Below, one piece after another: positions 5,601 through 24,711 of a DNA stretch of 64,000 bases; position 1 is the stretch's first letter, and each line of letters opens with the position of its first letter. This stretch comes from Diprion similis. Its lineage: Eukaryota; Arthropoda; Insecta; Hymenoptera; Diprionidae. The translations under genes were made by a program, and so were the position numbers. The stretch is taken from assembly GCF_021155765.1 (NCBI RefSeq), contig NC_060116.1, forward strand, positions 11,780,001 through 11,844,000, given 5' to 3'. The notes beneath the pieces were generated by a model. It worked only from the letters and a program-made list of their open reading frames with translations. It had not been told where the DNA came from and ran no database searches.

Positions 5601-8118
5601 GGGCCCCGTCGAAAGGGATAAAACTAAAACGCCTTGGAGGCGAGGGAACAAAAATGTAACCGATGTTTTTAGTGCATCCATTCTATCACTGCGCGGTTTT
5701 TCTTTTTCTCCATTCATCCAACACTCGAACGGCTCGGCAGCGGTTAGATTTGACCATTATAGTGCATTTCGTGATTTAGCAAAAGCAGCTCAATATAGAA
5801 ATGAAAAATAAACGAGGCGTCAGTCGCATTCGAAAATAGAGAAAAGGGAAAGGGATCTCTGATCGCGATCTGGGAGGGGCTCGAACGATCGGACACCTCT
5901 TCGCCCGAGAGATTTCCCAAGATCCAGACGGCATCCGCTGCCGGGATGAAACGCGACGATAGTCGGTAGAACCGGTATTACCACGTGCGCAGGCGTGTGC
6001 GTGCGTGTATATAAAAGTAGAACAAAATAACGAGATAAATTCAGGTCGATAACACGGAAAGTGAATCCGTCTTCGACTTCTGCTAACGCTTGAAAAAAAG
6101 CTGCTGAAAGCTCCCTGCGTTGAAAAAATTGCCACCGTGCAGTTAATGCATCCTCAGGATGGTCGATCGTGTCTCGGTTCACCGCAACCCGATGTAAACG
6201 CCCTGATGCAGATGGTAGCTGTTGAACTGCACCCGGAACCGCGCTTTCACGACACAAGATCGTTAATCCTGCAGTATAAACGCTAACAGAATAACCTATC
6301 ATTATCCACCGTCATTTTGACGAACACGTTCGCCTCATTATCGGATTCATTCACGAAATTGTACCTTTCCCAACATCATGATACTAAGAGTTGTCAAAAT
6401 TATGTCTGAAAGATATCTTTTGGGCGTAAGAATATTTTTTCGAGACGAAAAAAGGGGTCGTAAGATATTTCTTGGAAGGTCTTTTTGGTGGTTTTTAGTT
6501 TTTTGATATCTGGGTCGTTTCATCGATTGCTGATCGATATTAATGTAACATGTATTCAATTGGGGATGAAAAATTGCGTTATGGAATAGTTGCGTGTCAG
6601 GCCGTGAAGTTTATCAAATTCCATCGTGGCATTTAGTTGGGAACTCTCGGAATTCTGTTAGATCACCTTAGCGTGTTTCAAGATCGATATCGCGAATCGC
6701 CCGATGCGAACTTTCTTCGCCGCGTATAACACTGCGTCCTTGCCGGGAGTTTTCGTGGACGTACCACGTACAGCCTATTGTCCAATTCAAAGTGAAGGAT
6801 ATTATAATACGTGAATATCCTTTTGATCGAAAATAAAACCAATTTTCCAGACCCTTTGTATTTGAATACAGATATCGTTCTTTGATTTCTGCGTAGCTCA
6901 TGCCATCATTCAATAGAAACTGTATTTTGAATAAAGTTCCTTGAATTTTCAGGACATACAAGGATCAGAGTGAATGAGAATTACTTATTAATCGTTTATC
7001 GCCTCTTTAGACTCTTATTTTACCAAATTTTGACAGAATTTTGTTAGAAATTTGCCAATCGAGTCTCAAAAATTTTCTTACAACGGTGGCCAAATGGCTC
7101 GTGATTTTCAGGATCATTTGACGAATCTGTAACAAGGAAAAACGGGAAGCAATAACACCGATAAGTAACATATTTCTCGGTGAATGTCTGTTTTCGCAAT
7201 AATTAAAATTATCTCCAAGTAGCGTGATCTTAATTTTCGGCCTACAGATCGCAGCGCCGTTTATGAATAATGCATTAATTTTCTTGCAAATCATTCTGTA
7301 GATGAAAGTGAGAATGGCAGCAGTTTGTACCAGGCGGGCCGAGTCAATGTTTCACCCATTTCCTTTTCCTCTCGAGCGATCAAACCGCTGTGCTCCGATT
7401 TGTACGAAGTGAACGCATTTCGCATTTCGCTGCTCGCGAGCCTCGGGCTATGCGCAAAAGCTGGATCGTAGCCGTAGTTAAATCGGTTGACATTCACGAA
7501 GGCGAGTCATGCCGGATAATTAATTTCCAAACGCTTCACTCCCTGAAGCGCTGAACTTTGACTCACTATCAGTGCACGACAAACAATGAGAATTGATTTT
7601 GATTATTGCTGACTCGATATGGCACGAATGATATTTAAAAGTAGAAAATTTGCATCTTATTTTGCAAAGCGATTGCAATTGCATTTTCCTCACTGACAAT
7701 GACTTTCGCAGGGCAAATTTCACCCGTCAAATTGGCTCTTCTGAATTTTATTAGATTTAAAAAAGCATTTTTTTTAACGAAGACTATAATAATTTTATCG
7801 AGTTGTTACAACTCAACTTTCTATATAACATCATGCAGATACGATCATCCTGTTCTCATTGTAAAATCTGGCAATGCATTATACATTTTTATTATCAAGA
7901 TATACATTTACGTAACGCTCTGCAGTTCTTTGATCTCGATTATTATGGTTTGAGATGCATGCGCAAAGTTTTGACAGCTAAATGTAAAATAAAAAAAACA
8001 GACTTAAATTCGTTCAAGAACTTCCTTATACGATCATAGAGTGAAAAATCACGTAACATCGGTGTCAGGAGCTATAAATGAAATACGACAAAGTTAATAA
8101 AAAGAGAAATATAACAAT
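2190..8118. other. AT-rich intergenic region without a convincing gene
   Basis: About 5.9 kb. Visible items are a 28-base T run at 2597-2624 (possibly the tail of an old retroposed insert on the minus strand), a T run near 4427-4442, a (CT)n tract near 5263-5300, and a GC-richer patch at about 5830-6290 that includes a TATA/initiator pair. Open frames here are short, lack family-like features and have no supporting splice context, so none is annotated. Confidence 0.5.
6008..6017 (+). promoter_or_regulatory. Possible orphan core promoter (TATA plus initiator)
   Basis: TATATAAAAG on the plus strand is followed by TTCAGGTC, whose A is at 6043, about 33 bases from the TATAAA start. That is a good core-promoter spacing. 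The first ATG downstream is at 6146 and opens only 46 codons (to 6286), which I do not recognise. The surrounding GC-richer patch could be the 5' end of a gene or a non-coding RNA, or chance. Confidence 0.25.
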
Positions 8119-21854: not shown

Positions 21855-21860
21855 TTTATT
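21855..21860 (-). terminator. Poly(A) signal of the METTL6 downstream unit
   Basis: AATAAA on the minus strand, about 100 bases after the end of the 94-codon frame. It is the first hexamer found after the METTL6 stop in the spliced order of exons. Confidence 0.55.
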
Positions 21861-21961
21861 ATCGGCATACAACAGTTGTGTAAAGTAAAAACACTTGATA
21901 GATTCTTTAGTCGAGGTTCAACCATCCGCATCAGACTTGGCTAGGTCCAGGACTAGTAATG

Positions 21962-23079
21962 TCAAATTACTGCACATCCTACAACACGAAATGTCCTCGA
22001 TGTTTAGTTGGAGTTGAAGGTAAGTTTTGACAATGTAAATTACGTATTTTGTAAGTATCAGATAGAGCTAATATTTGGTATAGTCATTCACGTAAGATTC
22101 AGCGAGTTTATTCATCATTATAATACTTTAAACACATTTTCCGAGAAAAAAAATATAGTAAAATTGTAATAGTACCTTTGCAGTTTGGGTACGAAAAACC
22201 GTGATCTTGTAATGTTGGAGATGAAAATCCGTAGCGGCAATCTAGAATAAAAGACCAAGTAATTAGATGTGATGTATGCACGTATACACCGAACAACGTA
22301 AATTAGATAAATTTTTTGTTATACAATATCTCAGTGGTAGTGACGAAATGTTTATTCATCATAAAATTATTTCAACTTGCAACAGTATTTTTACATCATC
22401 GATAATAAGAAACTACCTAATTGCATTGCAAAATTAAAGATTCAAATAATGTTAGAAACTTACGATATCTCGGGATGAGACGATGTTTCTTCACTCTCGC
22501 GTAACGGGAAACACTAGAAAACAAACGTTTAACGAAAATTATTCAATTATCAATTAGGCGTTCATTACTGAGTAATTTTAAACAAAATCAGATAGGAGCG
22601 AAAGACATTTATTCATGTGTACATCAAAATGCTTCAGTTGAACTATGAAATCATCACATTATTTTTTGTTCACTCACATGTATGTACTTGATAATATTGT
22701 TACAATTAACTTTTATATGATGTTACCTAACAATCTCATCGATGTTGAGGTCTTTGGAGTATCGCTTGAAGGTAAGATATGACAAATTGATCTCTTTCAT
22801 TTCCTTTGCCGAGCACCTCTGGGTGGAGACAAGTGTTTTGTACTGCACCGCAAGCAAGTAAGTCCTGAAACGAATATTGAGATATAATTAATAACCTGTT
22901 GCACAAATTGCATCAGCTGGAATTCTTATTAAATATCAGTCAGAACTAGTAGCTAAAATTTTCGTCACATTCACAAAAAAATGTGTATCGGTTGAACTAT
23001 GGAATCATCACTTCAATATTATCGGCTCCAAGTTATTAACGATCAGAAACTTAGGGTTGTCTTACCTAATCAATCTCAT
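21962..23079 (-). CDS. Downstream spliced unit of METTL6 (snoRNA host exons), possible 94-residue ORF
   Basis: Five exon segments with consensus splice sites follow METTL6: up to 23066, 22727-22864, 22464-22513, 22176-22241 and from 21978. Starting at ATG 23079 (MRLIRTYLLAVQYKTL) they join in one frame of 94 codons to a TGA at 21962, ending YPNCKGCAVI. An AATAAA at 21855-21860 follows. I recognise no family, and the exons may be a non-coding host RNA with a frame open by chance. Every intron holds one C/D-box snoRNA at the usual distance from its 3' splice site, which strongly supports the exon structure itself. The first segment begins 88 bases after the METTL6 stop with no promoter evident, so the unit may be a 3' extension of the METTL6 transcript. 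Confidence 0.45.
22054..22128 (-). ncRNA. C/D-box snoRNA, SNORD44-type guide to 18S rRNA
   Basis: Minus strand: C box ATGATGA (22112-22118), D' box CTGA (22099-22102), C'-like TGAATGA (22084-22090), D box CTGA (22058-22061), and an AAGTA/TACTT terminal stem. The guide TATTAGCTCTA is complementary to the conserved 18S segment UAGAGCUAAUA. Human SNORD44, a GAS5-encoded snoRNA for 18S A166, has nearly the same guide. The spacing to the 3' splice site at 21978 is about 80 nt. Confidence 0.75.
22327..22404 (-). ncRNA. C/D-box snoRNA with a 13-nt match to 18S rRNA
   Basis: Minus strand: C box ATGATGT (22393-22399), D'-like CTGT (22382-22385), perfect C' box ATGATGA (22356-22362), D box CTGA (22331-22334), and a GATA/TATC terminal stem. 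The bases before the D box, TTTCGTCACTACC, are complementary to the conserved 18S segment GGUAGUGACGAAA. With one unpaired base next to the box, the rule points to the A of GGUA. I cannot assign a human or yeast counterpart with confidence. It sits about 90 nt from the 3' splice site at 22241. Confidence 0.7.
22584..22661 (-). ncRNA. C/D-box snoRNA, SNORD80/snR60 type, copy 4
   Basis: Minus strand: C box GTGATGA (22651-22657), guide CATAGTTCAA with D' CTGA, C' box TTGATGT, guide GTCTTTCGCTCCTAT with D box CTGA (22588-22591), 74 nt from the 3' splice site at 22513. It is intact and predicted to guide the same A and G methylations in 28S as copies 1 and 2. Confidence 0.88.
22935..23015 (-). ncRNA. 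Diverged C/D-box snoRNA, copy 3 with altered D guide
   Basis: Minus strand: perfect C box GTGATGA (23005-23011) and CATAGTTCAA as in the other copies, but D' is degenerate (CCGA), C' is weak (TGTGACG) and the D region reads AGCTACTAGTTCTGACTGA, with two overlapping D-box candidates (22936-22939, 22940-22943). The usual GTCTTTCG guide is gone. AGCTACTAG is complementary to CUAGUAGCU, which occurs in 28S some 20 nt downstream of the ancestral target, with a mismatch next to the box. Position in the intron (75 nt from the 3' splice site) is conserved. It may be a re-targeted snoRNA or a decaying copy. Confidence 0.55.
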
Positions 23080-23166
23080 TGTCAATGCTTAGCATCGAGG
23101 ACGGGTTCAAGTCCATCAGTTTGAAAGATTCATGGCACTAGCGTACCGTGTTAGTTTGTTCATCCT

Positions 23167-24711
23167 TCACGGTCTCTTGAATTTAGCTTGAACAAATATT
23201 CTGGGTACATTGATATTTTCCTTGACATTTATCGTCCGCCTCTGTACGTAGCAGCAGCTGAGTTCTTGGAAACCAGCAGAGAGGAAGATGTCCCTTACTT
23301 CTTCGATGGAGAAATAGTAGCTCCTAAAGTACGATATAAAGTATGGTTAGCCGTATTATTCACAAATTGTGTAACACGCGTTGATTATTGAGATTGAATC
23401 AGATAGGAGCGAAAGACATTGCTTAATGTAGACATCAACAATTTCTATTTTCAGTTGAACTATGGGATCATCAGATTAAAATTATATTCGTGATTTTAAA
23501 TACATATAAGTTTCTTTACAAGTCCACGACTGCATATAAATTTTACCTGGTTCCATCTTGTCGAACATAGAAATTCTCGGATATTTTGTGTCCTGGTTTG
23601 AACCTCAGCTGTGCCATATCATAAAGTCCGTAATCTCGAAATAAGACAGTTCCACCGGTATTCATAACAGCATATACATGTTCAGCAACCCTGAAAGAAC
23701 CCATTTGAAATTAACTTGAAGTAACTACAAAACTTAAAAATATTCTACTATATAAAATCATCAGATAGGGGCGAAAGACGTTGCCTAGTAATAACATCAA
23801 TGACCATCAGTTGAACTATGGTATCATCATAAAAGAAGCGAACTGTTTTAAAAAAGGATGTTATTGCGAGTAGAAGTGGTTAACTTACATTTTAAATTTC
23901 TCTGGATGGATAGCGGATAAGACGAAAATCAGGGTGGCCACATTCACCGGAAGATCGATTGCAGAAAAGCACTCAGCTTGGGTAACGTCCGCTTGAAAGG
24001 GAACTATTTTTACTGGATCGAACAATTTGTGACTCTAGAATAATTAATACAGTAGTTTATATTAGATTAGGATTTTACGGATAATTATCAATACATCATA
24101 TAGGTATGTATCAAGCTAATTCAACATTTCTAGAGGAATGTAACTGATGTTTCATGAATCGAATAAATATCCAAACATTCCGCGATTGCATTGTACAAAA
24201 ATTATCCAGTGGGAGAAGGAAAAGTGATTTCAAGTCTGCGTTTAGATTTAAATTCGAAAAACTTTATCGTCGGTAATTTCAGTCGGTAAAAAAGGCACGC
24301 AGCGTCGCCTTAAGATTTGAACTCATGCTTTCCAACTTCAAATTTTACCTTCACGAGGTCAACGGCTCTGGGAGAAAGATCGCAGGCGTAAATTTTCCTC
24401 ATTTTAAGTCCATCTTCGAGCAGCGGGTAGAATAAATTCCCGACGCCGCAGCCAACTTCGAGCAAAACGCCGTCGTCGACGCCGAGGCCCAGAAGTTCCT
24501 CGAACTCCCTCGTGGTCCAGTGACGATCCTTGAAGAACCGGGTCTCGTTTCGCTTGTAGAATAAATCCCAGTGCTTCTTAGCGTCCTTTTCGAATTGCGC
24601 AGCTTTCCGTTCTGGTACCAAACGCGAATCCTGTTCGAGCATTCGGCTCTCCTCATCGGCCGTTAAGCGCTTCGCCACGTGGCTGATCTGCCCAGCGTCG
24701 CTCTTTTCCAT
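23167..24711 (-). CDS. METTL6: METTL6, tRNA(Ser) N3-methylcytidine-32 methyltransferase, 269 residues
   Basis: Four exons join in frame: 24349-24711, 23889-24034, 23547-23690, 23167-23323. METTL6 enzymes transfer a methyl group from S-adenosylmethionine to C32 of serine tRNAs. The N-terminal part (AKRLTADEE, then [20 protein letters not shown], 48-67) follows the METTL6 pattern more closely than METTL2/8. SAM motif I is LEVGCGVGN (84-92), the next acidic motif ACDLSPRA (109-116), then [13 protein letters not shown] (155-167), LFRDYGLYD (186-194), [15 protein letters not shown] (208-222) and the family C-terminus [10 protein letters not shown] (257-266). Human METTL6 is slightly longer (about 284). 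The ATG at 24711 is the first; an upstream extension has only a TTG. Introns 2 and 3 each hold a C/D snoRNA. No poly(A) signal follows the stop before a splice donor at 23065, so the transcript probably runs on into the downstream exons. Confidence 0.92.
23395..23478 (-). ncRNA. C/D-box snoRNA, SNORD80/snR60 type, copy 2 (METTL6 intron 3)
   Basis: Minus strand: C box CTGATGA (23468-23474), D' guide CATAGTTCAA with CTGA, C' box TTGATGT, D guide GTCTTTCGCTCCTAT and D box CTGA (23399-23402), 75 nt from the 3' splice site. The T in CTCC pairs with rRNA as a G-U wobble, exactly as I recall for human SNORD80. The predicted targets are the same two 28S sites as for copy 1. Confidence 0.88.
23757..23835 (-). 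ncRNA. C/D-box snoRNA, SNORD80/snR60 type, copy 1 (METTL6 intron 2)
   Basis: Minus strand: C box ATGATGA (23824-23830), D' box CTGA preceded by CATAGTTCAA, C' box TTGATGT, D box CTGA (23761-23764) preceded by GTCTTTCGCCCCTAT. The D guide is fully complementary to the conserved 28S segment AUAGGGGCGAAAGAC, and the D' guide to UUGAACUAUG. The fifth-nucleotide rule predicts 2'-O-methylation of a G and an A that are 91 nt apart in 28S, the same spacing as human A1521/G1612 and yeast A817/G908. The D box lies 70 nt from the 3' splice site. This copy pairs without a G-U wobble, unlike copies 2 and 4. Confidence 0.88.

Follow-up and report, generated by a model that had tools for sequence, protein, structure and literature searches.

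Predicted box C/D snoRNAs in six introns of a METTL6 gene and its putative non-coding tail in Diprion similis

The METTL6 gene and the predicted snoRNAs in its introns

The window analysed here is a stretch of 64,000 nucleotides of Diprion similis (assembly GCF_021155765.1, contig NC_060116.1, positions 11,780,001 to 11,844,000), and its minus strand carries a complete METTL6 open reading frame of 269 amino acids in four exons, which begins at 24711 and ends in exon 4 (Table 1). Residues 13-269 align to solved METTL6 structures through the last residue (E 1.1e-80), a full-length similarity which places the protein in METTL6, and the four METTL6 matches listed for the 269-Mb assembly are each one exon of this copy. 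For the unit as a whole, eight exons and seven GT-AG introns were deduced, and the limits of exons 5 to 8, which are putative non-coding exons, were set by splice signals only. The first 35 nt of exon 5 have a single occurrence in the genome allowing up to 3 mismatches. Duplication of exons was rejected as no exon matched another at E up to 0.01, and duplication of whole introns was rejected as similarity between the introns is confined to the snoRNAs. The right half of the window is filled by a satellite array (31454-63897) with a 304-bp unit in 106.7 copies at 98% matches, and the minus strand of the array has five open frames of 130-145 aa, almost identical to one another, which are probably not genes.

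Table 1. Exons, introns and predicted snoRNAs of the METTL6 unit (coordinates in the window)
Feature	Coordinates	Strand	Boxes	Evidence
METTL6 exon 1, coding part from ATG	24349..24711	-		gene model, protein match
Intron 1, 314 nt	24035..24348	-		without detected snoRNA
METTL6 exon 2	23889..24034	-		gene model, protein match
Intron 2 snoRNA, snR60/SNORD80 type, two guides	23753..23841	-	C 23830-23824, D' 23810-23807, D 23764-23761	RF00309 48.7 bits, above gathering
METTL6 exon 3	23547..23690	-		gene model, protein match
Intron 3 snoRNA, snR60/SNORD80 type	23391..23483	-	C (CTGATGA) from 23474, D' 23454-23451, D 23402-23399	RF00309 56.8 bits, above gathering
Exon 4: METTL6 C-terminus, stop 23169-23167, 101 nt non-coding to donor	23066..23323	-
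Intron 4 snoRNA, paralogue	22932..23020	-		RF00309 26.2 bits (gathering 41), alignment
Non-coding exon 5	22727..22864	-		splice signals
Intron 5 snoRNA, snR60/SNORD80 type	22580..22666	-	C 22657-22651, D' 22637-22634, D 22591-22588	RF00309 55.4 bits, above gathering
Non-coding exon 6, 50 nt	22464..22513	-		splice signals
Intron 6 snoRNA, SNORD70-like	22319..22412	-	C (ATGATGT) from 22399, C' 22362-22356, D 22334-22331	SNORD70 41.8 bits, E 0.00042 (gathering 50)
Non-coding exon 7	22176..22241	-		splice signals
Intron 7 snoRNA, SNORD44-like by D guide only	22050..22129	-	C 22118-22112, CTGA 22102-22099 as D', D 22061-22058	rRNA pairing
Putative last non-coding exon 8, AATAAA starting 21860	21855..21978	-		splice signals, poly(A) motif

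The results confirmed that six of the seven introns, namely introns 2 to 7, each hold one predicted box C/D snoRNA; in intron 1 none was detected by a below-gathering Rfam scan or a box search. At the gathering thresholds Rfam gave three matches in the window, which are the snoRNAs of introns 2, 3 and 5, all to RF00309. Aligned with one another, these three agree at 45 of 46 columns in boxes and guides in comparison to 9 of 51 columns elsewhere, as is expected under selection for snoRNA function. The paralogue in intron 4 has retained the D' guide (with D' box CCGA) and has lost the C' box and the D guide; two neighbouring D box candidates lie at 22943-22936 (CTGACTGA). The snoRNA of intron 6 stays below the gathering threshold of SNORD70 (RF00575) and is thus called SNORD70-like only. 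For intron 7 there was no convincing Rfam match (the best being snoZ102_R77, E 7.8), and it is absent among the 13 weak matches to SNORD44 (RF00287) in the genome at E up to 10; assignment to SNORD44 by Rfam was thus rejected, as the weak matches lie elsewhere only and 11 of 14 control genomes also gave matches.

The distance from C to D box is 61-76 nt in all six snoRNAs, within the range of about 60-80 nt. The C boxes of introns 3 and 6 are one base off, the C' box of intron 7 is weak, and the terminal stems of introns 2, 4, 5 and 7 are short and weak (0.2 to -1.4 kcal/mol). A scan for loosely matching C-to-D motifs gave eight starts on the minus strand of the window, six of which are the C boxes of introns 2 to 7, the remaining two being at 23764 (the D box of intron 2 itself) and 13533; on the plus strand there were two starts (10139 and 29676). 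From the D box to the 3' splice site, introns 2 to 7 measure 70, 75, 71 or 75 (for the two D box candidates), 74, 89 and 79 nt, and in a crude simulation of random placement the probability of all six D boxes falling at 65-90 nt was about 4e-4. One snoRNA per intron at a regular distance (70-89 nt) from the 3' splice site in six of seven introns is the pattern of a multi-snoRNA host.

A preliminary description of this DNA had proposed one C/D snoRNA in each of six consecutive introns with the D box 70-90 nt from the 3' splice site, and both statements are borne out by the boxes, the measured spacing and, for introns 2, 3 and 5, Rfam. Its further statement that C, D', C' and D boxes are recognisable throughout holds for six C/D units, save that intron 4 has lost its C' box and that of intron 7 is weak. 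The families which it named (SNORD80/77, snR60 and SNORD44) and proposed to check with Rfam models are retained for introns 2 to 5, and for intron 7 by its guide only, and are replaced by a SNORD70-like assignment for intron 6; RF00309 accepts introns 2, 3 and 5 and places 4 below gathering, SNORD70 places 6 below gathering, and 7 has no convincing match.

Predicted rRNA targets and occurrence in the genome

The rDNA of the species itself was located via a typed 28S stretch, found in five places; three stretches were fetched, and the guide scan used the one with 18S, 5.8S and 28S landmarks (L010, to which the positions below refer). Equivalence to human sites was judged by recognised conserved rRNA context rather than by a full alignment to human rRNA. 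In introns 2, 3 and 5 the D guide forms 15 pairs with ATAGGGGCGAAAGAC, one of them a G-U in introns 3 and 5, and puts the +5 nucleotide on the G at 5862, matching the predicted equivalent of human 28S G1612. For intron 6, the D guide match to 18S GGTAGTGACGAAA is 13 positions long and has +5 on A 1953, matching the predicted equivalent of human 18S A512, which SNORD70 also serves, and for intron 7 the match to 18S TAGAGCTAATA is 11 positions long and has +5 on A 1629, matching the predicted equivalent of human 18S A166. The number of shuffles reaching the score of the D guide was 0, 1, 0, 0 and 2 out of 60 for introns 2, 3, 5, 6 and 7, respectively. The human sites are listed as methylated, with U80/U77 for Am1521, U80 for Gm1612, U44 for Am166 and U45a for Am512, and with snR60 for yeast sites (PMC3511168).

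The D' guides of introns 2 to 5 fit TGAACTATG at 5767, which by register puts +5 on A 5771, and 5771 and 5862 are 91 nt apart, the same spacing as human A1521 and G1612. The D' guides fit this A1521 equivalent less specifically than the D guides fit their sites: the best D' score was matched by 10, 11, 15 and 1 of 60 shuffles for introns 2, 3, 4 and 5, respectively, and another 28S site, 6044-6055 with +5 on A 6048, outscored the A1521 site in all four copies (12 pairs in intron 5); the A1521 site had rank 2 in introns 4 and 5 and rank 3 in introns 2 and 3. The D' stretch of intron 7 had no target above chance (54 of 60 shuffles as good).

The D guide of intron 4 was rejected as its best rRNA match is no better than shuffles (6/60 and 5/60 for the two possible D boxes), and the 9-bp fit of the first candidate to 28S at 5885 is at chance level. 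The complementarity to conserved rRNA claimed in the preliminary description is thus kept for the D guides of introns 2, 3, 5, 6 and 7, whereas intron 4 has no second guide and reaches a +5 site by its D' guide only, no better than shuffles. It is quite possible, if doubtful, that some copies, intron 4 foremost, are decaying duplicates with no role as methylation guides, as the missing C' box and D guide and the score below gathering would suggest; against such decay, the C box, the D' guide and a D box of intron 4 are intact and could suffice for a single-guide snoRNA, for which human SNORD77, sharing its target A1521 with SNORD80, is a precedent (PMC6856654).

In the 269-Mb assembly, the search with RF00309, in which the best 61 candidates were scored, listed three places, which are introns 2, 3 and 5, and none of 14 control genomes gave a match. 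The pattern of a C box plus D' guide had four occurrences in the assembly, one per intron in introns 2 to 5 (backwards control 0), and that of a C box plus the A166 guide motif had one, in intron 7 (control 0), both patterns being written from the METTL6 locus itself. For SNORD70, with the best 60 candidates scored, one place was listed at E up to 1, which is intron 6 (E 0.0045, below the cut-off), and 3 of 14 control genomes also matched at that limit. The METTL6 locus is thus the sole place found for these families and motifs within the limits of the searches, which covered RF00309, SNORD70 and the two patterns, SNORD77 and SNORD45 lying outside them, and in which divergent copies elsewhere may have fallen outside the candidates scored.

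A probable single transcription unit and its alternatives

From the genes, boxes, spacing, rRNA complementarity and genome-wide scarcity seen in the sequence, we infer, with a probability of about 0.85, that METTL6 and the downstream sequence form one transcription unit, which would be the intronic host of six C/D snoRNAs with the targets predicted above and a candidate for nonsense-mediated decay (NMD). Polymerase II would read through METTL6 into a spliced non-coding 3' tail resembling Uhg and GAS5, and splicing would free six introns, each to be processed into one C/D snoRNP. As targets of 2'-O-methylation, those of introns 2, 3 and 5 would have the counterparts of 28S A1521 (through the D' guide) and G1612 (through the D guide), that of intron 4 the A1521 counterpart only, and those of introns 6 and 7 the counterparts of 18S A512 and A166, respectively. 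That the spacing of the snoRNAs is regular both before and after the stop codon is the strongest argument from sequence for the tail introns being spliced.

With 101 nt between its METTL6 stop codon and the following exon junction, the spliced RNA is a possible target of NMD and may be short-lived; GAS5 RNA is reported to be subject to NMD, and a block of NMD is described to stabilise several snoRNA hosts (UHG, GAS5) but not all (e.g., U17HG and U87HG) (PMC6954239). METTL6 protein would then come from RNA with an early 3' end in or after exon 4, or from RNA that escapes decay. The minus strand from 24800 to 21500 has four AATAAA and no ATTAAA, three of the former being inside the snoRNAs of introns 5, 6 and 7 (at 22613, 22356 and 22112 on the transcribed strand) and the fourth in exon 8. 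As these two motifs are absent near exon 4, an early 3' end there would need another signal.

Unlikely in our judgement is the alternative that METTL6 terminates within exon 4 or close to it and carries introns 2 and 3 alone, with introns 4 to 7 belonging to a separate non-coding host which has its own promoter near exon 4. Coding does stop within exon 4, and no protein family is recognisable in the frame of the tail, which makes the tail resemble the Drosophila Uhg genes, described as lacking a recognisable open frame (PMC4430873); however, paralogues of one snoRNA family occur before as well as after the stop codon (introns 2-5), and the minus strand from 24800 to 22614 is free of AATAAA and ATTAAA, the first candidate being within the intron 5 snoRNA. 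A search with one narrow pattern gave no TCT- or TOP-like start around exons 3-4, where such a promoter would be expected to lie; it gave none upstream of METTL6 either, which counts against the favoured single unit. That the gene has two cistrons, with the tail exons encoding a small second protein, is very improbable, for the 97 codons that follow one another without a stop from exon 4 to exon 8 (window about 23090-21960, spliced), even though they pass four inferred junctions, were equalled in length by 232 of 5000 first-order Markov sequences, and their frame matched nothing in Pfam or PDB at E up to 10, so that this open stretch is likely due to chance.

Comparison with known snoRNA hosts

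GAS5, the vertebrate multi-snoRNA host that is known best, is non-coding, whereas the first four exons of the METTL6 unit are coding, and we know of no METTL6 part in GAS5. The cargo common to both is the SNORD80/77 type and the SNORD44 type. GAS5 has ten intronic C/D snoRNAs, SNORD80, SNORD77 and SNORD44 being among them (PMC6856654), and the targets listed for these three (28S A1521 and G1612 and 18S A166; PMC3511168) are the ones predicted for introns 2 to 5 and 7. The intron 4 snoRNA resembles SNORD77 of GAS5 as a single-guide relative sharing A1521. The two hosts differ in that SNORD70 is outside the GAS5 list in PMC6856654 while the METTL6 unit has a SNORD70-like snoRNA in intron 6, and in that the GAS5 member SNORD74 gave no match in the Diprion similis genome at E up to 0.1.

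Drosophila Uhg is described as a multi-intron host with one snoRNA in nearly every intron, similar to the METTL6 unit, but as having no recognisable open frame, in comparison to METTL6 in the first four exons here (PMC4430873). In Drosophila S2 cells, ribosomal proteins are reported to be the products of 30% (73/239) of the snoRNA host genes (PMC13228274). Like METTL6, such genes carry snoRNAs in introns of a translation-related protein gene; the METTL6 unit differs from them in that its stop codon is followed by four of the seven introns, all of them with a snoRNA, and in that the host is a tRNA methyltransferase gene.

The idea of a multi-snoRNA host built onto METTL6, put forward in the preliminary description, fits the sequence evidence. 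Its impression that such an arrangement had not been described holds in part: METTL6 as host and the overlap with the GAS5 cargo are unusual, and no description of METTL6 as a snoRNA host was found in titles and abstract openings of the open-licence PMC literature, whereas the plan of one snoRNA per intron is already known from Uhg (PMC4430873) and GAS5 is a multi-snoRNA host. The link between rRNA and tRNA modification which it drew may possibly amount to co-expression only.

Shared ancestry with GAS5 is a lead rather than a result. It is distinctly unlikely, on present grounds, that the METTL6 tail is the insect descendant of an ancestral animal host of GAS5 type, with cargo of SNORD80/77/44 type, that was captured by METTL6, so that one promoter would yield either METTL6 mRNA with an early 3' end or snoRNAs together with exons doomed to NMD. 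If this were true, the supply of a tRNA m3C enzyme would be tied to the supply of rRNA methylation guides.

In general, the analysis points to one gene as the sole place found to encode guides for four conserved rRNA methylations, further guide families for these sites, such as SNORD45 for A512, lying outside the searches, so that one knock-down would test all four together. The METTL6 unit would add a mixed coding and non-coding host to the known ones, and may serve as a test of whether GAS5-like sets of snoRNAs are ancient.
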